Assembly (NCBI RefSeq): GCF_003347515.1
Contig: NZ_QEII01000234.1
Coordinates: forward strand, 62,001 to 126,000
Length of the DNA stretch: 64,000 bases
From: Rhodoferax ferrireducens
GTDB taxonomy: Bacteria > Pseudomonadota > Gammaproteobacteria > Burkholderiales > Burkholderiaceae_C
Direction: 5' to 3'
The notes beneath the pieces were generated by a model. It saw only the letters and a program-made list of their open reading frames with translations, had not been told where the DNA came from and ran no database searches. The position numbers were made by a program, and so were the translations under genes. Every line of letters starts with the position of its first letter. Position 1 is the first letter of the stretch. Positions 5,455-63,240 of this stretch are shown here, piece by piece.

Positions 5455-5487
5455 AAAAAGGGCTAGCGCTTTTTCAAGCTCTAGCCC
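5455..5487 (-). terminator. Terminator / possible attenuator between rplT and pheS
   Basis: On the minus strand, GGGCTAGAGC (5487-5478) pairs with GCGCTAGCCC (5469-5460) with one mismatch, followed by TTTTT (5459-5455). It ends the infC-rpmI-rplT unit and lies about 70 bases before the pheS start. The upstream arm is part of a copy of the 55-bp repeat. No phenylalanine-rich leader peptide is visible, so attenuation is only a possibility. Confidence 0.7.
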
Positions 5488-5525
5488 TTGTTTCTAATGC
5501 ACAGAACGTTATCCGAAAGATAGCG
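5471..5525 (+). repeat. 55-bp dispersed repeat, copy 1 (rplT-pheS gap)
   Basis: It begins TTTTCAAGCTCTAGCC and ends GATAGCG, the same ends and length as the other copies, though the middle is degenerate (TTGTTTCTAATGCACAGA). It occupies most of the gap between rplT (ends 5539) and the terminator loop, and its GCTCTAGCCC block forms one arm of the terminator stem. Confidence 0.55.
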
Positions 5526-5538
5526 AACCGCCGTAAAC

Positions 5539-10491: not shown

Positions 10492-10803
10492 GGAATCACT
10501 CCTAGGGTTAAGTAAAACAAATCGGTACTGGATCCTGCGTAAGCTCCGTACCTGTCGGTCAATTCTAAGTCTTATAGAAGACTTAAAGGCAATCTTATGT
10601 CTTATAGAAGAGTTAATTTAAATTCAATTAAATCAATGGCTTATGATATTAAAATCACAATACGAAAAAACATTTTTCATAACGAGAAAAATTCTCGTGC
10701 ATTGATGTAGCCACTTTTCGCAATACAAAATTTAATTTTCATATTGCAAAAATATTCTGAAGGGGACGTTCACAATACTTTCTACGGCCTCAGACAGTCG
10801 ATT
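10492..10803. other. AT-rich intergenic region between aceA and the aldehyde dehydrogenase gene
   Basis: This 312-bp stretch holds the aceA promoter side and the palindrome pair at 10566-10615, then an AT-rich segment (about 10615-10760) with runs such as TTAATTTAAATTCAATTAAAT. No gene is seen in it. The minus-strand aldehyde dehydrogenase gene ends at its right edge. Confidence 0.6.
10566..10615. promoter_or_regulatory. Candidate operator pair upstream of aceA
   Basis: First site: TAAGTCTT-ATAG-AAGACTTA (10566-10585), a perfect 8-bp inverted repeat. Second site: GTCTTATAGAAGAG around 10599-10612, whose CTTATAGAAG core starts exactly 30 bp after that of the first. Two same-phase dyads about three helical turns apart suggest cooperative binding of a dimeric regulator. 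The regulator is unknown. Confidence 0.6.
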
Positions 10804-22748: not shown

Positions 22749-23735
22749 ATGGCACCCGCTTCAAACGCCTTGACTACTACAAAACACCGCCTCACAGCCT
22801 ATGGCCTTCTGGCCCTCAGCATGTCGCTGGTTGGCAGTTATGTCGCCCTGTCAAAACCGCTGGTGGCGGCGCTGCCGGTATTTTTGCTGGCCTGGATGCG
22901 TTTTGGCATCGGCGGACTCGCCATGCCGCACTGGCTGAAAAAACCAGTCGGAGAGCCGCCCATGACCGGTGCGACCCGCAAGCTGGTGTTTCTGGAGTCC
23001 TTGCTGGGCAACTTCTTATTCTCCATCTGCATGCTCTACGGCGTCAGCATGACCAGCGCGGTCTCGGCGGGCGTCATCATGGCCTCCATCCCGGCCGCGG
23101 TCGCGCTGATGAGCTGGTTCTTCCTGCGTGAGCGCATAGGCCTTCGGGTCTGGGCCGCGATTGCCTGCGCAGCCTTCGGCATAGGTTTGTTTTCGCTATC
23201 AAAATCAGAGCTGCCTGCGCAATATACACGAGGGCTAGAGGCTGATTTAGCGTATAAAAACATGCTGTGGGGCAATCTGCTGGTGTTTGCCGCCGTGTTG
23301 TGCGAAGCCGCATACGCCGTGATCGGCAAGAAGCTCACAGGCACCCTGAGCGCAAAACGGATCACCGCGCTGATCAACCTATGGGGCTTTGTGTTGATGA
23401 CGCCCCTGGGCCTCTACATGGCCTTGCAGTTCGACTTTGGCACCGTGACCTCAGGTACCTGGCTGCTGCTGGTCTTCTACTCGCTAGCGGCCAGCGTGTG
23501 GACCGTGTGGTTGTGGATGACGGGCCTGCAAACCGTGCCGGCCGCGAAGGCCGGGGTGTTCACCGTCATGCTGCCCATCTCGGCGGCACTGGTCGGCGTG
23601 TTCGCCTTGGGCGAGACGCTGCGTGGCGTGCAGCTGCTGGCGTTCGGTATCGCCATGATCGGCGTGGTGCTGGCCACCCTGCCCGCCCGCGCCAGCTTCA
23701 CACCTGCCAGTGCTAAGTCAGACGGCGCGCACTGA
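22749..23735 (+). CDS. DMT-superfamily (EamA) transporter carrying an in-frame 55-bp repeat
   Basis: A 328-residue inner-membrane protein with about ten hydrophobic segments in two EamA repeats (first about residues 15-145, second about 175-320). The substrate cannot be told; family members export amino acids or metabolites. Residues about 149-167 (KSELPAQYTRGLEADLAYK) are polar, lie in the loop between the two halves, and are encoded by a copy of the 55-bp dispersed repeat. The gene is divergent from puuB and its 3' end overlaps the convergent RraA-like gene by about 23 bases. Confidence 0.88.
   Translation: MAPASNALTTTKHRLTAYGLLALSMSLVGSYVALSKPLVAALPVFLLAWMRFGIGGLAMPHWLKKPVGEPPMTGATRKLVFLESLLGNFLFSICMLYGVSMTSAVSAGVIMASIPAAVALMSWFFLRERIGLRVWAAIACAAFGIGLFSLSKSELPAQYTRGLEADLAYKNMLWGNLLVFAAVLCEAAYAVIGKKLTGTLSAKRITALINLWGFVLMTPLGLYMALQFDFGTVTSGTWLLLVFYSLAASVWTVWLWMTGLQTVPAAKAGVFTVMLPISAALVGVFALGETLRGVQLLAFGIAMIGVVLATLPARASFTPASAKSDGAH
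23194..23248 (-). repeat. 55-bp dispersed repeat, copy 3 (inside DMT transporter gene)
   Basis: Read on the minus strand it has AAATCAGCCTCTAGCCCTCG at the left, then TTGCGCAGGCAGCTCTGATT, and ends GATAGCG. It is the best-preserved copy and lies wholly within coding sequence without breaking the frame. Confidence 0.8.
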
Positions 23736-24555: not shown

Positions 24556-25020
24556 ATGGCAACTGCAAAAAAAGCACCGGCAAAGAAAGCTGCACCTGCA
24601 AAAAAAGCAGCACCGGTCAAGAGCGCGGCTCCTGCAAAGAAAGTCGCACCTGCCAAGACCGTAGCCGCCAAGGCGCCGGCCAAAAAGGCAGCGCCAGCTA
24701 AAAAAGCTGTGCCTGCCAAGAAAGCGGCTCCGGCTAAGAAAGTCGCTGCGACCAAAGCACCCGCCAAGAAGCGGACTGCCAACGCCGCGTTCATGAAAGC
24801 ACTGACGCCCAGCGCCGCTCTGGCTGCCGTAGTGGGTGCAAGCCCACTGCCACGCACCGAGGTGGTGAAGCAGCTGTGGGTTTACATCAAGAAGAACAAG
24901 CTGCAAGACGCCATCAACAAGCGCATGATCAATGCCGACGCCAAACTGAAGGAAGTCTTCGGCAAGGTGCAGGTATCCATGTTCGAGATGGCTGGCCTGA
25001 TCGGCAAACACCTCAAGTAA
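24556..25020 (+). CDS. Histone H1-like Lys/Ala-rich protein with C-terminal SWIB domain
   Basis: A 154-residue protein in two parts. Residues 2-75 are built almost only of Ala, Lys, Pro and Val in degenerate AKKAAPAKKA units, like the DNA-binding tails of bacterial histone H1-like proteins. Residues about 78-154 form a SWIB/MDM2 domain (MKALTPSAALAAVVG, LPRTEVVKQLWVYIKKNKLQ, ADAKLKEVFGK, MFEMAGLIGKHLK), a fold otherwise known from eukaryotic chromatin remodellers and chlamydiae. It probably binds DNA and shapes the nucleoid. A strong AAGAAGGA site precedes the ATG, and a terminator follows. Confidence 0.93.
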   Translation: MATAKKAPAKKAAPAKKAAPVKSAAPAKKVAPAKTVAAKAPAKKAAPAKKAVPAKKAAPAKKVAATKAPAKKRTANAAFMKALTPSAALAAVVGASPLPRTEVVKQLWVYIKKNKLQDAINKRMINADAKLKEVFGKVQVSMFEMAGLIGKHLK

Positions 25021-30917: not shown

Positions 30918-31036
30918 ACAAATCAGGCTATGTATGAATTAGCTGTTGAAACACTTCGCTTCCCTGTAGAACCGATTTGCTCCTTCCCTCTGGCGAATTG
31001 AATTTCAACAGTTAATGCAGACATAGCCACAAATCA
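30918..31036. mobile_element. 103-bp MITE with 26-bp inverted repeats and 8-bp target duplication
   Basis: The element spans 30926-31028. The left end (GGCTATGTATGAATTAGC then TGTTGAAA) and the complement of the right end (GGCTATGTCTGCATTAAC then TGTTGAAA) agree at 23 of 26 positions. Both sides are flanked by ACAAATCA (30918-30925 and 31029-31036), a clean 8-bp duplication. There is no coding capacity. Such non-autonomous elements are moved by a transposase elsewhere; 8-bp duplications are made by IS1595-type and some other families. The parent is not in this window. The right flank is the first bases of a copy of the 55-bp repeat, so the MITE inserted after that repeat was in place. Confidence 0.85.
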
Positions 31037-31085
31037 GGCTCCAGCCCTCGTCGTCAGTGCGCAAGTAGCTCTGTTTTTAATAGCA
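31031..31085 (+). repeat. 55-bp dispersed repeat, copy 4 (dpp / TPP-enzyme gap)
   Basis: It starts AAATCAGGCTCCAGCCCTCG, has GTGCGCAAGTAGCTCTG in the middle and ends AATAGCA. It directly abuts the stop end of the TPP-enzyme gene and is cut at its left edge by the MITE target duplication. Confidence 0.8.
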
Positions 31086-31089
31086 AATA

Positions 31090-34200: not shown

Positions 34201-35007
34201 GTGAAACGCACTACCGCTCTCAAACCCCAGGTCATCGAAAACACCGACCCGGTCGCGCCCACGCCGCGCCGACCGGTGCGCAGCCGGGCCCGGCCGCTGG
34301 TGGTGGACGCCCACTTTGAGCCGCATCACCACCCCTGGGCGCAAGTAGCCTATTGCGCCAGCGGGCTGATTCAGGTGACGGTCGCTGACGGCGACACGGA
34401 AACCACCTTTATCCTGCCCCCATCCCGCGCCGTGTGGATTCCGCCCGGTGCCCGGCACGCCGTGACGGTGCTGGAAGCGACTGAACTGCGCACGGTCTAC
34501 CTGGACCCCACGGCCACGCCCGAAGGCTGGCGCGGCTGTCGGGTTTTGGTCGTCTCCAATCTGCTGCGGGAACTGATTCACGCACTCGAAGCCTCGCAGC
34601 CAAGTGCCCGCGACGACGCGCTGATCACGCTGACCCTTTTCGAGATCACCCACGCCGACACCCAGGCACTGGGCGTGCCCTTGCCGCGCGACAAGCGCCT
34701 GCGCACCCTGTGCGAAGCCGTGCTGCGCGACCCGGGCAAGCGCGCCACCTTGTCCGAGTGGGCCGTGGACATCGGCGCCAGTGAACGCACGGTGGCACGC
34801 CTGTTTCGCACCGGTCTGGCGACCAGCTTTCAGCAATGGCGCCAGCAGGCCATCCTGGCGCACGCCCTGCCCATGCTGGCGCGCGGCACCCCCATTAGCC
34901 AAGTGGCGGCAGCCAGCGGTTATGCCAGCGACAGCGCCTTCTCGGCCATGTTCAAGTCGGCCATGGGGCACTCGCCCAGCCATTTTCAGAACAAAAATGT
35001 GCTCTAG
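34201..35007 (+). CDS. AraC-family regulator with cupin N-terminus; stop codon inside a repeat copy
   Basis: A 268-residue regulator starting at GTG. A cupin-like sensor domain lies at about residues 30-110 (FEPHHHPWAQVAYCASG, SRAVWIPPGARHAV) and two helix-turn-helix motifs are at the C-terminus (TLSEWAVDIGASERTVARLF; PISQVAAASGYASDSAFSAMFK). It is divergent from the MFS gene, the likely target. The last four residues and the TAG fall within a copy of the 55-bp repeat, so the original C-terminus was probably altered when the repeat arrived. Confidence 0.88.
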   Translation: MKRTTALKPQVIENTDPVAPTPRRPVRSRARPLVVDAHFEPHHHPWAQVAYCASGLIQVTVADGDTETTFILPPSRAVWIPPGARHAVTVLEATELRTVYLDPTATPEGWRGCRVLVVSNLLRELIHALEASQPSARDDALITLTLFEITHADTQALGVPLPRDKRLRTLCEAVLRDPGKRATLSEWAVDIGASERTVARLFRTGLATSFQQWRQQAILAHALPMLARGTPISQVAAASGYASDSAFSAMFKSAMGHSPSHFQNKNVL

Positions 35008-35048
35008 CCCCCGTATCCATTGCGTAGACAGCTATTATTTTAGGAGTA
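34994..35048 (+). repeat. 55-bp dispersed repeat, copy 5 (3' end of araC-type gene)
   Basis: It contains GCTCTAGCCCCCGTATCCAT, TGCGTAGACAGCTATTATTT and ends TAGGAGTA. Its TAG in GCTCTAGCCC is the stop codon of the AraC gene (35005-35007). Confidence 0.78.
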
Positions 35049-35087
35049 TGAGGAACGCGACGGCTTGCGCCTGAAACTCGCGCCAGC

Positions 35088-42425: not shown

Positions 42426-42677
42426 TCACCCACCCGTTACCGGCGGGAAAAAGGCGACCTCTGCCCCGTCCACCAACGCGGCGGATTCCTCGCTCATCAC
42501 CTGGTTAAGCGCCATGCGCACGACCCGGCCGCGCGCCAGGCTCTCGGCATGTTGGCCGCCCAACGCAATCAACTCGTCCCGCAGCGCGGCGAGAGAGGAT
42601 GCCGTGGTGTCAATCGATTCGCTGGACACGCCCACGGCCTCGCGGATGGAGGCGAAATACTTGACTGTGACCTTCAT
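42426..42677 (-). CDS. moaD: Molybdopterin synthase sulfur carrier subunit
   Basis: An 83-residue ubiquitin-fold protein (MKVTVKYFASIREAVGV) ending in the required Gly-Gly (PPVTGG), which is thiocarboxylated and gives sulfur to MoaE's reaction. Its ATG overlaps the moeA stop by four bases, so it is translationally coupled. The frame is open upstream to 42767, inside moeA, but that extension is not real. Confidence 0.94.
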   Translation of the reverse strand: MKVTVKYFASIREAVGVSSESIDTTASSLAALRDELIALGGQHAESLARGRVVRMALNQVMSEESAALVDGAEVAFFPPVTGG

Positions 42678-43915
42678 CCCAGCACCTCCGTAAACGGAAT
42701 AAACCGAACCACGTCGCCCTGCTGGATGGTCTGGCCGCTTGGGTTGTCCACCAGGCCATCGCCCCAAACGGCCGAGGTCAGGACGCCGGCACTTTGGTTG
42801 GCGAACAGATCCAGCCCACCCGCCGCATTGCGCCGCACGCGCAGGAATTCCCGACGTTTATCGGCTCTAGCCCACGTGAAATGGGCGGTCATAGCTATCG
42901 ATTCAGGAGTAACCACAGTAACCCCCTGCAACTTCAGCAAAAACGGGCGCACCAGCAGCAAGAAGGTGACAAAGCTCGACACCGGGTTGCCCGGCAGCCC
43001 GATGAAGTGGGCGTCCTGCACCCGGCCGTAGGCAAAGGGCTTGCCAGGCTTGATGGCGATTTGCCACAGATCCAGCGAGCCCAGCGACTGCACGGCGGGT
43101 TTGATGTGGTCTTCTTCACCGACCGAAACACCGCCACTGGTCAAAATCAGGTCGTGCTGCTCCGCCGCGCCTTGCAGTGCGGCCACGGTGGCGTCCAGCC
43201 GGTCCGGCACGATGCCCAGGTCGCTCACCTCGCAACCCAGGCGTAGCAAGAGCGCCCTCAAGAAGAAGCGGTTGGAGTTGTATATCGAGCCGGGCTTCAT
43301 CTGCCCCGGCGCCACCTCGCCCGGCATCACCAGCTCGTCACCGGTCGAGAACAAAGCCACCCGCGGCCGCCGCGCCACGGGCAGGAGGTTCATGCCAATA
43401 CTGGCCGCCAGCCCCAATGCAGCGGGCGTAAGCCGATCTCCTTTTGAGAGCACTGTGGCGCCTAGCGTCACGTCTTCGCCGGCGCGGCGAATCCACTGGC
43501 CCGGCGCGGGCACGGCCTTGATGCGTACCGCGCCGCCCTCCAAAACGTCGCAGTCTTCCTGCATCACCACCGCATCGGCTCCCGAAGGAATCGGCGCGCC
43601 GGTAAATATCCGGGCCGCGCTCATGGGCGCCAGGGCATCGCCAGAAGAGCCGGCGGCAATGCGTTGCGTGACCGACAGAACCCCTTGGGTTTGTGTCTGC
43701 GCCTGCAAAACATCCGCGCAACGTACGGCGTAGCCATCCATGGCGCTGTTGTCCTGCGGCGGCACGTGCAGGGCCGACATCACGTCTTGCGCCAGCACCC
43801 GGCCATCGGCATCAAAGGTCGAGACCGACTCGACGTCGGCCAAAACCGCAGCAAACCCCAGCAATTCAGCGAGGGCATCATCCAGTGATTTCAGCGGTGG
43901 GCGTGGCGCATTCAT
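42674..43915 (-). CDS. moeA: Molybdopterin molybdenumtransferase carrying an in-frame 55-bp repeat
   Basis: A 413-residue MoeA that inserts molybdenum into adenylated molybdopterin. Order: MoeA N-domain (SLDDALAELLGFA; DNSAMDGYAV; GAPIPSGADAVVMQED), MoCF domain with TSGGVSVGEEDHIKPAV and GLPGNPVSSFV, and C-domain IV (RREFLRVRRN). Residues about 335-353 (before KRREFLRV) are encoded by a copy of the 55-bp repeat on the opposite strand. It overlaps mobB and moaD by ATGA on each side. Confidence 0.95.
   Translation of the reverse strand: MNAPRPPLKSLDDALAELLGFAAVLADVESVSTFDADGRVLAQDVMSALHVPPQDNSAMDGYAVRCADVLQAQTQTQGVLSVTQRIAAGSSGDALAPMSAARIFTGAPIPSGADAVVMQEDCDVLEGGAVRIKAVPAPGQWIRRAGEDVTLGATVLSKGDRLTPAALGLAASIGMNLLPVARRPRVALFSTGDELVMPGEVAPGQMKPGSIYNSNRFFLRALLLRLGCEVSDLGIVPDRLDATVAALQGAAEQHDLILTSGGVSVGEEDHIKPAVQSLGSLDLWQIAIKPGKPFAYGRVQDAHFIGLPGNPVSSFVTFLLLVRPFLLKLQGVTVVTPESIAMTAHFTWARADKRREFLRVRRNAAGGLDLFANQSAGVLTSAVWGDGLVDNPSGQTIQQGDVVRFIPFTEVLG
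42857..42911 (+). repeat. 55-bp dispersed repeat, copy 6 (inside moeA)
   Basis: Both ends are conserved: TTTATCGGCTCTAGCCC at the left and TAGCTATCGATTCAGGAGTA at the right, in the same spacing as copy 5; the middle is degenerate. It lies fully within the moeA reading frame. Confidence 0.6.
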
Positions 43916-44445
43916 GCAAAAGTCTCCTGGCGATAGTCAAAACGGGCCGCATTCGCCGTCAACCAGTCCGCGACCGCCTCGGCATCATTGAGGTCCAGCA
44001 CGGGCCGCTGCGTGGCCTGGGGCAGCTGCGTGGGTGAATCCGTGGCAATGGCCACGATGAAATCATCATCCATATAACGAGCGGGCTTGTTAGCGTGTGC
44101 TCGCCAGACCTCGATCTTGAGCAAATCAGAGTCCTTGAAGCCTTCCACCAGCACCCAGTCGACGCCCTCATATAGCTCGGCAATCAACTGGTGCACCGAG
44201 AGCTGCACCGGTTGCTCAAACTCGCGCATCAGCGCCAGCCGCTTATCCGACGCCACCACCACTTCAAATGCACCCGCCTCACGGTGCCGGTAGGTGTCTT
44301 TGCCAACGTGATCGATGTCAAAGCGGTGATGGGCGTGTTTGACGACCGACACACGCAGACCCTTGAGGCGCAAGGCCGGGATCAGACGCTCCACCAGCGT
44401 GGTCTTGCCGGAGCCGGAATACCCCGCAAAACCAACGACCTTCAT
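43912..44445 (-). CDS. mobB: Molybdopterin-guanine dinucleotide biosynthesis protein MobB
   Basis: A 177-residue GTP-binding protein with P-loop GYSGSGKTTLVERLIP at residues about 6-21 and the HAHHRFDIDHVGKDTYRHREAGA segment typical of MobB. It assists MobA in making the guanine dinucleotide cofactor. The ATG at 44445 overlaps the thrC stop as ATGA; an ATG two codons upstream (44451) is possible. It is fourth from the end of hom-thrC-mobB-moeA-moaD. Confidence 0.93.
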   Translation of the reverse strand: MKVVGFAGYSGSGKTTLVERLIPALRLKGLRVSVVKHAHHRFDIDHVGKDTYRHREAGAFEVVVASDKRLALMREFEQPVQLSVHQLIAELYEGVDWVLVEGFKDSDLLKIEVWRAHANKPARYMDDDFIVAIATDSPTQLPQATQRPVLDLNDAEAVADWLTANAARFDYRQETFA

Positions 44446-47215: not shown

Positions 47216-47270
47216 AAATTGGCCTCTAGCCCTCGTGCAATATGCGCAAGTAGCTATTAAATATATAGCA
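47216..47270 (+). repeat. 55-bp dispersed repeat, copy 7 (alaA-hom gap)
   Basis: AAATTGGCCTCTAGCCCTCG at the left, ATGCGCAAGTAGCTATTAAA in the middle, and ATATAGCA at the right. It covers almost the whole 72-base gap between the alaA stop and the hom start. Confidence 0.8.
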
Positions 47271-47272
47271 AA

Positions 47273-48499
47273 TTAGTTGCTATGCCGCTTGCGGTAGATT
47301 TCAAGAAACTTGGCGACGCGGCCAATGGCCTCGCGCAAATCATCCTCATGCGGCAAAAATACAATGCGGAAATGGTCGGGTGCCGCCCAGTTGAAGCCGG
47401 TGCCCTGCACCAGCATCACGCGGGTTTCCTGAAGCAGCTCCAGAAAGAACTGCTGGTCATCAACAATCGGGTACAGCGTCGGGTCCAGACGGGGAAACAT
47501 ATACAGCGCCGCCGTCGGCTTGACGCAGGTTACCCCCGGAATCGCCGTGATCAACTCGTAAGCCAGGTCGCGCTGACGGCGAAGGCGGCCGCCCTCGCCC
47601 ACCAGGTCATTGATGCTCTGATAGCCCCCCAGAGCGGTCTGGATCGCCCACTGGCCGGGCACATTGGCACACAGCCGCATGTTCGAGAGCATGTTCAGCC
47701 CCTCGATGTAATCCTTGGCCGGTTTCTTGTCGCCCGACACCACCATCCAGCCCGAGCGGTAGCCGCAGGAGCGGTAGCTTTTTGACAGTGAATTGAAGGT
47801 GAGGGTCAGCACATCGTCAGAGAGACTGCCAATGGCCGTGTGGCTCGCGTCGTCGTACAGGACCTTGTCGTACACCTCGTCGGCAAAGATGACCAGGCCA
47901 TGCTCACGCGCAATCAGTACGATGGCCTTGAGCAGTTCATCGGAATACAGCGCACCGGTCGGGTTGTTGGGGTTGATCACCACAATGCCCTTGGTCCGTG
48001 GCGTGATTTTGGCGCGAATATCGTTGAGGTCGGGCATCCAGCCGTTGGCTTCGTCGCACAGATAGTGCACCGGTGTGCCGCCCGACAGACTGGCTGCCGC
48101 CGTCCACAGCGGGTAGTCGGGCGACGGCAACAGCAACTCGTCGCCGTTGTCGAGCAGTGCATTCGTTGCCATCACGATCAACTCGCTGGCGCCGTTGCCC
48201 AGGTAAATATCGTCCAGCGTTACGCCCTTGATGCCCTGCTGCTGGGTGTAGTGCATGACCGCCTTGCGCGCCGCAAAAATGCCCTTGCTGTCGGAGTAAC
48301 CGGCAGAATTGGGCAGGTTACGGATCATGTCCTGCTGGATTTCCTCGGGCGCATCAAAACCGAACACGGCCAGATTGCCGATGTTGAGCTTGATGATCTT
48401 GTGACCCTCTTCCTCCATCTGACGGGCAGCATCCATGATGGGGCCGCGAATGTCGTAGCAGACGTTGGCCAGTTTGGCTGATTTGCGAATGGTCTTCAA
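47273..48499 (-). CDS. alaA: Alanine-synthesising aminotransferase AlaA (TTG start)
   Basis: A 408-residue class I aminotransferase very close in motif to E. coli AlaA: KSAKLANVCYDIRGPIMD, IYLGNGASELIV, NPNNPTGALYSDELL, and the PLP lysine in SLSKSYRSCGYRSGW. It transfers the amino group of glutamate to pyruvate. Homology starts at the TTG at 48499 (TTGAAGACCATTCGC), which has GGAGGG 4 bases before it. The only ATG in frame, at 48550, is followed by a -10-like TATAGG box, so it is likely upstream of the transcript. Confidence 0.93.
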   Translation of the reverse strand: MKTIRKSAKLANVCYDIRGPIMDAARQMEEEGHKIIKLNIGNLAVFGFDAPEEIQQDMIRNLPNSAGYSDSKGIFAARKAVMHYTQQQGIKGVTLDDIYLGNGASELIVMATNALLDNGDELLLPSPDYPLWTAAASLSGGTPVHYLCDEANGWMPDLNDIRAKITPRTKGIVVINPNNPTGALYSDELLKAIVLIAREHGLVIFADEVYDKVLYDDASHTAIGSLSDDVLTLTFNSLSKSYRSCGYRSGWMVVSGDKKPAKDYIEGLNMLSNMRLCANVPGQWAIQTALGGYQSINDLVGEGGRLRRQRDLAYELITAIPGVTCVKPTAALYMFPRLDPTLYPIVDDQQFFLELLQETRVMLVQGTGFNWAAPDHFRIVFLPHEDDLREAIGRVAKFLEIYRKRHSN

Positions 48500-51536: not shown

Positions 51537-51556
51537 GGGCGAGATGAAGAAAAAAT

Positions 51557-51611
51557 AGCTACAAACTTTATAGCTACTCAGGCAATCTATTCGAGGGCTA
51601 GCGGCCAAATT
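51557..51611 (-). repeat. 55-bp dispersed repeat, copy 8 (PhoH-dnaB gap)
   Basis: On the minus strand: AATTTGGCCGCTAGCCCTCG at the left, GATTGCCTGAGTAGCTATAA in the middle, TTGTAGCT at the right. It fills the gap up to the dnaB stop. Confidence 0.72.
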
Positions 51612-60915: not shown

Positions 60916-63240
60916 ATGTCCAAACGCTCAAAAATACAGCAAAAACAGGCTCTAACCCCCGTGTCTATTGCGCAACAAGCTATCAACAAAGTAGCAAAAC
61001 CATCCCCCCTGCTCCCCTTGGGTGCGATGCTGCTCGCGGGCTCCATGAGCGCCATGGCCCAACAATCGCCGACTGATGCAGACAAGACGCTAAAACCCGT
61101 CGTGGTCAAGGAAAAGGCCGAATCCCCGGAAGGCAAGGACGCCTTGCGCGCCACAGCCACCACCATCGGCAAAGGCAAGCAGTTGCTGCGCGACATTCCG
61201 CAGTCAGTGACCGTTGTCACCGAAAAACTGATTGACGACCGCAACCTGGACACCGTCAAAGAGGCGCTGAAAAACACCAGCGGCATCTCCTTCCTGGCGG
61301 CCGAAGGCGGCGAGGAGGACATTCGCCTGCGCGGTTTCTCCTTGCAAGCCACCGGCGATATTTTCATTGACGGCATGCGCGATCCGGCGTTTTATGAACG
61401 CGATACCTTCAATTTGGACCGCCTGGAAGTCTTGCGCGGCTCGGCCTCCATGCTGTTTGGTCGCGGCTCCACTGGCGGCGCGGTCAACCAAGTGAGCAAG
61501 CAGCCCCGCACCATTGATGAAAACGAGATTACGACCACGCTGGGCAGCCACAACTACCGCCGGGTCACGGGTGACTTCAACATCCAGACCGGGGAGAACG
61601 CCGCCCTGCGCATCAACGCGATGGTCACCGAAGCCGACAACAATGGCGCCGGCAGCAGCCTGGACAAGAAAGGCATTGCCGCCACCTACCGCTTTGGCAT
61701 CGGCACCGCCGACGAATTCTCTGTGGGCTTGTACGACCTGCAAAACAACAATGGCATGAACTACGGCATGCCGTGGATCCGGCCTACGGCAACGTCCCCG
61801 GCATCAGACACCACGCTCATCGACAAACTCGACCCCAGCGCTTACTTCGGCATGGCCAGCGATTACAACGCGGGCAGTGCCAAGCACGTGACCGCCAGCC
61901 ACACCCACCGCTTTCAAGACGACAGCGAACTGAAAACCACCATCCGCAAAGGCAGCTTTGAGCGCGACCAGCGGGCGGGAACGGTGCGCTTGTGCCAACG
62001 AACGACCAATGCAACAACCGGCGTGGTCAGCAACCCGCAATGCCCTACAGCAACCGTTTCGCTCGACACCTTTAATCCATCTACCATTCTGACGCGCGGT
62101 ACCCAACTGAAAATTCAGGATCTGGACACGCTGTATTTTCAGACCGATTACAGCGCCAAGTTCAAGGCGCTGGGCTTGCAACATGAACTGTTGGCCGGTG
62201 CCGACTACGCCAGCGAAAAACGCCAGGTGTTTGGTGCCCGCACGGCAGCCCAGGGCGGCCTCAACCTGATCAAACCCACCACGACGGCAGGCACCCCTAA
62301 TGACGGCGCATCCATCGCCGAAGGTTCTCGCGTGCTGCGCCAAACCAACCAGTTCGACTCCACCGGTTATGGCTTGTATGTGCAAGACCTGGTGCAGGTG
62401 GCGCCCCACTGGAAGTTACTGGCGGGCCTGCGCTATGACAACCTGACCGGCGACTACAGCACCTTCAATATTCCCACCGGCGCGGCTGGTCCGGTCACCA
62501 CCAGCAGCTACTCCATGAATGTGTCAGAAGTCAGCAAGCGCGTGGGTGTCTTGTACCAACCCAATGAGTTGCACTCCTACCATTTCTCGGCTGCCACCTC
62601 GTTCAACACATCGGGTGAGGCGTATTCACTCAGCGCGACCAATCAGGATATTCCGCCGGAACAAAGCATTAACCTGGAGTTGGGCGCCAAACTCGACTCG
62701 GCCGACAAACGCTTTACCACCCGCCTGGCGCTGTTCCACTCGACCAAGCTGCATGAACGCAACACCGACCCGCTGGTCAACCTGGTCACCCTCTCCGGCA
62801 AGCGCCATGTGGCGGGGTTTGAGGTGGACATGGCGGGGAAATTGACGCCGCAGTGGGAAATTTACGGTTCCTATATGTGGATACCTGAGGCCAACATCGA
62901 TGAAGGCGTGGCCGGCTCTGAAGGTCAAGGCACACGCCCCTCGCTCACCCCTGAGCACAGCGGCACGGTATGGAACACCTACCAGATCACCTCGCAATGG
63001 CGCGTGGGCCTGGGCGTGAACTTCCGCGGTGAGCAAACCCCCATTCGCAACCCCGGCTGGACGGTGGACGGCTACGTGACCGGTGATTTGATGGCCGAGT
63101 ACAGGATCAATGACCAGTTCACGCTCAAAGGCAATGTGAACAACATCACCAACAAACTCTACGCTGATGCGCTGTACACCGGTCACTACATTCCTGGCGC
63201 GGGCCGCACGGTACAACTGACCCTCAACGCCAAGTTCTAA
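60916..63240 (+). CDS. TonB-dependent siderophore receptor with repeat-encoded signal-peptide extension
   Basis: A 774-residue outer-membrane receptor. Plug domain signatures are present (IPQSVTVVTEKLIDDRNLDTV, LRGFSLQATGDIFIDGMRD, RLEVLRGSASMLFGRGSTGG), followed by a beta barrel ending in NAKF, with the terminal phenylalanine needed for assembly. It resembles Fiu/FhuE-type catecholate or hydroxamate receptors. The signal peptide is unusually long (about 48 residues, cleavage after SAMA), because residues 10-27 (QALTPVSIAQQAINKVA) come from a copy of the 55-bp repeat. An upstream TTG at 60871 is less likely than the ATG at 60916. Followed by piuC. Confidence 0.93.
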   Translation: MSKRSKIQQKQALTPVSIAQQAINKVAKPSPLLPLGAMLLAGSMSAMAQQSPTDADKTLKPVVVKEKAESPEGKDALRATATTIGKGKQLLRDIPQSVTVVTEKLIDDRNLDTVKEALKNTSGISFLAAEGGEEDIRLRGFSLQATGDIFIDGMRDPAFYERDTFNLDRLEVLRGSASMLFGRGSTGGAVNQVSKQPRTIDENEITTTLGSHNYRRVTGDFNIQTGENAALRINAMVTEADNNGAGSSLDKKGIAATYRFGIGTADEFSVGLYDLQNNNGMNYGMPWIRPTATSPASDTTLIDKLDPSAYFGMASDYNAGSAKHVTASHTHRFQDDSELKTTIRKGSFERDQRAGTVRLCQRTTNATTGVVSNPQCPTATVSLDTFNPSTILTRGTQLKIQDLDTLYFQTDYSAKFKALGLQHELLAGADYASEKRQVFGARTAAQGGLNLIKPTTTAGTPNDGASIAEGSRVLRQTNQFDSTGYGLYVQDLVQVAPHWKLLAGLRYDNLTGDYSTFNIPTGAAGPVTTSSYSMNVSEVSKRVGVLYQPNELHSYHFSAATSFNTSGEAYSLSATNQDIPPEQSINLELGAKLDSADKRFTTRLALFHSTKLHERNTDPLVNLVTLSGKRHVAGFEVDMAGKLTPQWEIYGSYMWIPEANIDEGVAGSEGQGTRPSLTPEHSGTVWNTYQITSQWRVGLGVNFRGEQTPIRNPGWTVDGYVTGDLMAEYRINDQFTLKGNVNNITNKLYADALYTGHYIPGAGRTVQLTLNAKF
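60942..60996 (+). repeat. 55-bp dispersed repeat, copy 9 (in the receptor signal peptide)
   Basis: AAAACAGGCTCTAACCCC at the left, GTCTATTGCGCAACAAGCTA in the middle, and GTAGCA at the right. It lies entirely in coding sequence, without stop codons in the receptor frame. Confidence 0.75.

Follow-up and report, generated by a model that had tools for sequence, protein, structure and literature searches.

We found that the eamA gene in a 64,000-nucleotide stretch of Rhodoferax ferrireducens DNA (hereafter, the window) carries, in frame, a member of a dispersed family of roughly 65-bp repeats. The reading we favour, with a probability of about 0.68, is that this is an old, vertically inherited copy whose DNA remains subject to sequence-specific constraint or to homogenisation. 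In-frame repeats within genes have already been described in Rickettsia and, in the form of REPs, in several further species (PMC3733652 and PMC10969869). What is new, judging from our codon comparisons, is the conservation of silent sites in an in-gene copy while the other silent sites of the same gene are saturated.

The original prediction placed an in-frame repeat copy (23194-23248, residues 149-167) encoding polar and charged residues between the two halves of a DMT transporter, and these points held: the segment lies in a 328-aa open reading frame matching PF00892, the frame is kept, the whole unit encodes SLSKSELPAQYTRGLEADLAYK, and its position is the linker between helices 5 and 6 (Table 1). 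The unit was underestimated at 55 bp; by alignment and profile it spans ~65 bp, mostly without indels, and it supplies residues 149-170, or 22 of the 31 linker residues (counted from GI up to, but excluding, GN). An AlphaFold model from 26 sequences, with L099 (stop) omitted from the alignment, had a mean pLDDT of 74.8 and comprised helices at 132-150 and 172-196 around an unconfident segment at 153-169. Its best Foldseek matches were the DMT-type transporters 5i20, which we take to be YddG, and 5y78; a sequence search returned no solved relative at E ≤ 1, and no EamA relative was found at the DNA level in plasmid records. The loop had been called cytoplasmic. Five membrane helices precede it and Lys/Arg residues are concentrated in the loops that follow helices 2, 4 and 6, so that, by the positive-inside rule for membrane-protein topology, this unconfidently predicted linker with its repeat is probably periplasmic.

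Table 1. Location of eamA, its linker and the repeat copies in the window.
Feature	Position	Strand	Basis
eamA, 328-aa DMT transporter, EamA family	22749..23735	+	ORF; PF00892, 109 bits; AlphaFold; Foldseek
In-gene repeat copy, model positions 1-67, frame +0	23193..23259	+	profile, 64.3 bits
31-residue linker, helices 5 to 6, residues 144-174	23178..23270	+	orthologues, AlphaFold
Decayed repeat copy	5471..5528	-	2 mismatches in core
Repeat copy	31031..31088	-	core pattern
Repeat copy	34994..35051	-	core pattern
Weak repeat copy, frame open in MoeA-like gene 42677-43936 (-)	42846..42912	-	profile (32.5 bits), core pattern
Repeat copy with exact core	47216..47273	-	profile, core pattern
Diverged repeat copy, missed by core pattern	51553..51611	+	
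Repeat copy, by eye near start of possible + strand reading frame	60942..60999	-	core pattern

The family to which the EamA copy belongs is large. An 80-bp query around the copy matched 40 places in its own genome at E ≤ 1e-3, and the best other place for the plain EamA copy had an E value of 2.3e-11. At least 150 places matched a 67-position profile built from 29 copies that exclude the EamA copy, although all had been found with it as query. The core pattern GCGC(N)7ACGNGGGCTAGAG, allowing two mismatches, gave 348 matches compared with 9 for a backward control, which confirms the dispersed family first proposed and puts it at ~340 copies in the 6.87-Mb genome. With up to three mismatches the window contained 9 matches (0.91 expected), and we count eight or so copies there. 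The EamA copy had been singled out as the best kept of its family. It does rank 5th of the best 150 own-genome copies by profile score, a measure that leans towards it because the profile was built from copies found with it, but by identity to the plain majority consensus it is only 82nd of 97.

Copies in the genome are ~75% alike to their majority consensus, have a mean GC content of 0.41 (range of 0.31-0.49 in 96 copies) and share the conserved blocks CTA, (A)TAGCT, TTGCGCA, ACG, GGGCTAGAGGC and ATTT, with ATAGCT at model positions 15-20 and CTAGAG at 43-48. The repeat is not palindromic in the way that RPEs and REPs are, since self-complementarity is limited to a single short hairpin at the 5' end (67.8% of cells paired, below shuffles). 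This hairpin lacks covariation: for any given pair, both partners were changed in at most 2 of 29 copies. Among six copies folded as DNA, the EamA copy alone passed a z of -2; no terminal inverted repeats were seen by eye in the alignment, and GTAG occurred anywhere in the reverse complement in only 58 of 96 copies. The label of a palindromic unit thus barely applies, and the comparison with RPEs survives in one respect, the recurrence of in-frame copies within genes (14 of 101).

We considered two other explanations for the family and set both aside. An RNA hairpin function is at odds with the weak folds, the lack of covariation and the presence of both orientations in genes (6 versus 8), the last of which favours a role for the repeat as DNA rather than RNA. 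A RAYT transposase is an unlikely driver, as PF01797 matches repeat-rich and repeat-free genomes alike, in all 24 of the same-genus genomes searched, own included. The repeat profile itself matched the own genome and 26 of 35 relatives in the GTDB genus, with nine relatives lacking a match. At gathering scores across the window, Rfam reported only a tRNA, and two sub-threshold miRNA-model matches in eamA were dismissed as chance.

To place the EamA copy in time, we compared 107 EamA genes, own gene included, six of which are near-identical to others. With a scoring model trained without the EamA copy, the loops of 53 scored at least 15 bits, all in one register, and the best opposite-strand score was 6.5 bits. 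Bearers belong to Rhodoferax, Curvibacter and Polaromonas, with one Variovorax record, and the repeat forms a decay gradient among orthologues. In a quick tree with SH-aLRT support only, which leaves 38 of 98 inner branches open, the bearers were spread over several genera. The short loops of L031 and L032 fall inside a group of 19 genes with many bearers (SH-aLRT 100) and are therefore most simply read as losses rather than the original state. Taken together, the single register, the orthologous placement and the tree show, at the level of sequence comparison, an old copy that was already in eamA when Rhodoferax, Curvibacter, Polaromonas and Variovorax diverged and that has since descended vertically. 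That a native loop resembles the repeat by chance, for which one could cite the LSKSD at the left edge of the loop in the outgroup gene L034, is scarcely credible against the E value of 2.3e-11, the 64.3-bit profile score and the shared register in 53 of 107 genes. Two further eamA genes look unusual, each possibly through assembly error: that of G015 (L029) seems broken by a frame change, giving two tblastn pieces in different frames, and that of G035 (L011) is partly duplicated, with a second partial copy downstream.

The repeat adds little length. Orthologues without it had been predicted to lack 18-20 residues, whereas same-genus orthologues with shorter loops have 20-28 aa rather than 31 (3-11 fewer), and loops in repeat-free genomes of other genera range from 19 to 34 aa with a median of 27 (28 genomes, 26 genera). 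On these alignments the net gain is small, about 4 residues relative to the repeat-free median. This wider comparison drew on 59 further EamA genes from outside the genus but within the family, some of them belonging to the same genomes as named records (L285, without an anchor, was skipped), and on per-genome copy counts whose top value means at least 32. Loops of exactly 31 aa occurred in 16 of 21 genes from genomes with at least 20 copies, one of them (L255) unlike the repeat, compared with 3 of 28 from genomes without copies. The case named beforehand as refuting an added loop also occurs, as there are loops of equal length without a detectable repeat (for example, L070, L094, L113 and L140). 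Some of these look like decayed copies, with repeat-like residues kept in L094 and likewise in L088, whereas the loops of L113 and L140 are unrelated Ala-rich linkers.

The strongest evidence for continued constraint on the DNA comes from silent sites. We analysed 81 EamA genes that have a 31-aa loop and encode Lys152 and Glu154, taken from 97 distinct genes with that loop length; an earlier codon comparison had used 101 genes, after removal of near-identical ones from the 107, with loops unfiltered by bit score. Between divergent pairs, which are not independent of each other, codon identity given the same residue was 0.693 in the loop repeat and 0.442 in the rest of the gene (pair-matched weights), the latter close to the 0.4375 expected at saturation from codon usage. 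None of 212 other windows of EamA exceeded 0.524, and identity in the loop did not fall as divergence grew (0.688, 0.693 and 0.704). Lys152 was AAA and Glu154 was GAG in 81 of 81 genes each, the genes having been chosen for the residue and not the codon, and Leu150 was CTA in 59 of 81 genes, compared with 120 of 4,181 Leu codons elsewhere. By this measure the DNA spelling of the EamA copy is kept far better than the protein needs, at a divergence where silent sites in the rest of the gene are saturated. This suggests that the repeat is still being read by the cell as DNA.

The third positions that are kept in EamA are also those conserved in copies outside called genes (mean information of 1.00 versus 0.39). 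They correlate with conservation in the family (Spearman coefficient of 0.50 in information and, with a permutation p of 0.007, 0.53 in agreement), and they agree with the family at 0.64, compared with 0.24 expected. First positions track family conservation likewise (0.60), and second codon positions are not predicted by it (rho of 0.08). From the silent-site conservation we infer constraint on, or homogenisation of, the DNA of the EamA copy. The constraint does not cover the full motif: at positions 37-38, where the family is invariably CG, many EamA copies no longer have these bases (agreement of 52% and 22%). When 31-aa loops from few-copy and many-copy genomes were compared (8 versus 28), the third-position match showed no clear difference (p of 0.20) and all conserved positions together gave a p of 0.02; G190, which has no detected copy, kept 0.67 of third positions.

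Two alternatives bear directly on these data. Selection on codons to slow translation where the two membrane halves meet would keep rare codons, and CTA and TCA are indeed rare elsewhere in the gene, with a GC3 in long-loop genes of 0.43 in the loop and 0.78 elsewhere. Selection of this kind could mimic part of the silent-site signal. As a full account it is very unlikely, given that the kept third positions follow the dispersed family, that a similar signal appears in other genes in both orientations, and that short-loop orthologues have a GC3 of 0.71 in the loop and 0.82 elsewhere. The second alternative is a plain selfish, RPE-type insertion that jumped once into eamA, was tolerated in the linker and is now decaying coding sequence. 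Although the decay gradient among orthologues and the low model confidence of the linker are consistent with such an event, the silent sites of the copy remain undecayed while the rest of the gene is saturated, and the third positions kept are those of the family. We regard it as improbable, also in light of the copies in other genes.

Fourteen of 101 own-genome copies have an open frame and coding flanks on both sides, as called with ad hoc codon-score thresholds; the 101 are the best-scoring copies found with the EamA copy or the profile, plus those of the window, and are not a random draw from the ~340. The genes (NCBIfam, Pfam) encode EamA, MutS, PurL (twice), TrmJ, XdhA, RlmD, GluQRS, MoeA, a NUDIX/beta-lactamase-fold protein and a MocR-like regulator, with further copies in genes for Tex-like and HoxF/NuoF-like proteins (names from our interpretive reading) and in the MoeA-like gene of the window. 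Another two copies fall within a coding frame but are interrupted by a stop. A second MoeA gene of the genome (L160) has a strong in-frame copy at a place differing from that in the window gene.

None of 87 other copies is open in frame +0, the frame used in EamA, mainly owing to a TAG; an ordinary copy would thus stop the gene, which counts against a simple jump. The EamA copy has G at model position 16 where the family usually has T, such that the TAG is not a stop. All five in-gene copies in frame +0 have this G, as the stop must be lost somehow; it is also present in 4 of 87 other copies, and a suitable source for a selfish insertion could therefore exist. Across orthologues, position 16 is G in 76 of 77 EamA copies, compared with T in 88 of 96 other own-genome copies.

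We then examined orthologous positions for nine in-gene sites in eight genes, out of twelve further in-gene loci and with the window MoeA-like copy left out, reading 50 of 72 possible sites in eight same-genus relatives. The repeat was present at 19 of 19 sites read in repeat-rich relatives (G005, G024 and G032; 12.6-63.0 bits) and at 0 of 31 in repeat-free relatives (G001, G012, G027, G034 and G035), 30 of which gave no match and one 0.0 bits on the other strand. The XdhA site was read in one repeat-rich relative only; its repeat-free matches, at 41-42% identity, are not among the 31. Codons at the nine sites showed the same trend on smaller data, again with pairs that are not independent: between repeat-rich pairs, 298 of 399 codons (0.75) were identical in the repeat and 2,199 of 3,623 (0.61) in the flanks, and between the own genome and repeat-free relatives the values were 68 of 187 (0.36) and 1,934 of 3,469 (0.56). 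MutS had no silent-site excess (0.67 and 0.67).

Net lengths relative to repeat-free relatives differed between genes. Residues were gained in MoeA (+26 aa in 3/3, and ~26 extra compared with the solved 1fc5), TrmJ (+24 to +26 aa in 5/5, and ~28 extra compared with 4cnd) and GluQRS (+20 or +21 aa in 4/4), and these net insertions favour the selfish alternative. Tex gave +14 and 0. Against the selfish alternative are sites with no or almost no change, namely MutS (0 in 4/4, and no extra residues compared with the solved 5yk4), RlmD (0 in 5/5) and PurL site a (0 to +2 in five). PurL site b was 5 to 8 residues shorter than in three repeat-free relatives, which carry other repeats there: the linkers of G027, G034 and G035 (L313, L312 and L310), compared with L054 at aa 497-517, contain other GC-rich, palindrome-like putative repeats in frame, and the PurL linker may be a favoured site for unrelated repeat families to enter in frame. 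By eye, native edge residues already resemble repeat-encoded ones in MutS, TrmJ, PurL site a, RlmD and EamA.

Such look-alikes are what homogenisation alone would exploit, if gene conversion or template switching lets one copy overwrite another, producing in-gene conservation in the absence of selection and overwriting partial native matches. In-place copies sit at native stretches that resemble the repeat by eye (MutS QTLQKTELL, PurL AKSA...GYEKQ and RlmD LAxTxFVA), and the EamA copy is equally close to own-genome copies (best of 0.79) and to orthologous copies (best of 0.79). However, ~75% likeness to consensus is low for active conversion, and the near-fixed G at position 16 of EamA copies runs against overwriting by T-bearing copies, although a stop there would be selected against anyway. 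We consider this a possible but not a likely sole explanation.

Under the reading we favour, a ~65-bp repeat, dispersed across many genomes of the GTDB family to which the host belongs, entered eamA in frame at a linker that joins the two halves of the transporter and tolerates change, and it then descended vertically. A candidate factor in repeat-carrying cells would read or copy the motif, and genes able to bear it in frame would keep it. Some in-gene copies arrived as net insertions (MoeA, TrmJ and GluQRS), whereas others (MutS, RlmD and one PurL site) occupy the place of native codons, with edges already similar by eye, at no change in length; the outcome of in-place replacement is the same as that of insertion followed by an equal deletion, and the two are indistinguishable here. 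A bolder version, which we hold only tentatively, is that a DNA-recognition system (an uptake, recombination or nucleoid factor) drives the motif into genes, overwriting similar native codons, and that lineages losing the system let their in-gene copies decay together. If so, a DNA-level signal would dictate stretches of protein sequence in MutS, PurL, RlmD and EamA.

In-gene repeats are usually viewed as tolerated selfish DNA. Our results suggest that conserved proteins, MutS and MoeA among them, can be shaped by a DNA signal that acts across the genome. They turn the function of the motif into a testable question, for which repeat-rich and repeat-free species of one genus provide a natural comparison for finding the factor. 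DNA uptake sequences (USS and DUS) of 9-12 bp are kept by DNA-level drive in and between genes. By analogy, the Rhodoferax motif also occurs in both places, but it is far longer, at ~65 bp.

Among known repeats, RPEs are described in parts of PMC10969869 and PMC3733652 as short, palindromic dispersed repeats of ~150 bp in frame within functional genes of Rickettsia. The Rhodoferax family likewise lies in frame inside functional genes, but by that description it differs in being ~65 bp, hardly palindromic and betaproteobacterial, and also in that its silent sites are conserved across genera and several copies bring no net length change. REPs are 20-40-bp palindromes with a GTAG or CGTC end, and intragenic GTAG/CGTC REPs are given for O. 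terrae, Thauera, X. oryzae and others, with many in DNA synthesis and repair genes (PMC3733652, section on REPs). These too are repeats within genes outside Rickettsia, although the Rhodoferax family is longer (a 67-position model), mostly not palindromic and untracked by RAYT-type genes. BRE, as outlined in a portion of PMC3110155, is a ~90-bp element of 69% GC in Bordetella, dispersed in Bordetella, Polaromonas, Rhodoferax and others with some copies in genes; our family shares the dispersal and in-gene copies but is ~65 bp with 41% GC. The part of PMC2755013 concerned with repeats treats CRISPR repeats only.

The closest match is the motif ATAGCT(N)22CAAAAG of Polaromonas naphthalenivorans CJ2, with 125 copies, 18 (14%) of them in genes, and with the most motif pairs, 140, given for Rhodoferax ferrireducens (PMC5217627, section on the motif). 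Its first half and spacing fit repeat model positions 15-20 and 43-48, and its in-gene share is like our 14 of 101, whereas its second half reads CAAAAG where the Rhodoferax repeat has CTAGAG. On this likeness the CJ2 motif is probably of the same family; neither ATAGCT form was found in 19 Polaromonas-titled loci (72 kb). That section of PMC5217627 describes no in-frame use or conservation, and a literature search, with subscription papers mostly outside its reach, found no account of in-frame use or silent-site conservation for this family.

The window contains two other kinds of repeat. Downstream of eamA, at 24556-25020 (+), a Lys/Ala/Pro-rich histone-like protein is encoded with tandem 18-bp repeats (PAKKA units), and at 10560-10616 there are two near-identical 27-bp repeats of the CTTATAGAAG type, 30 bp apart.
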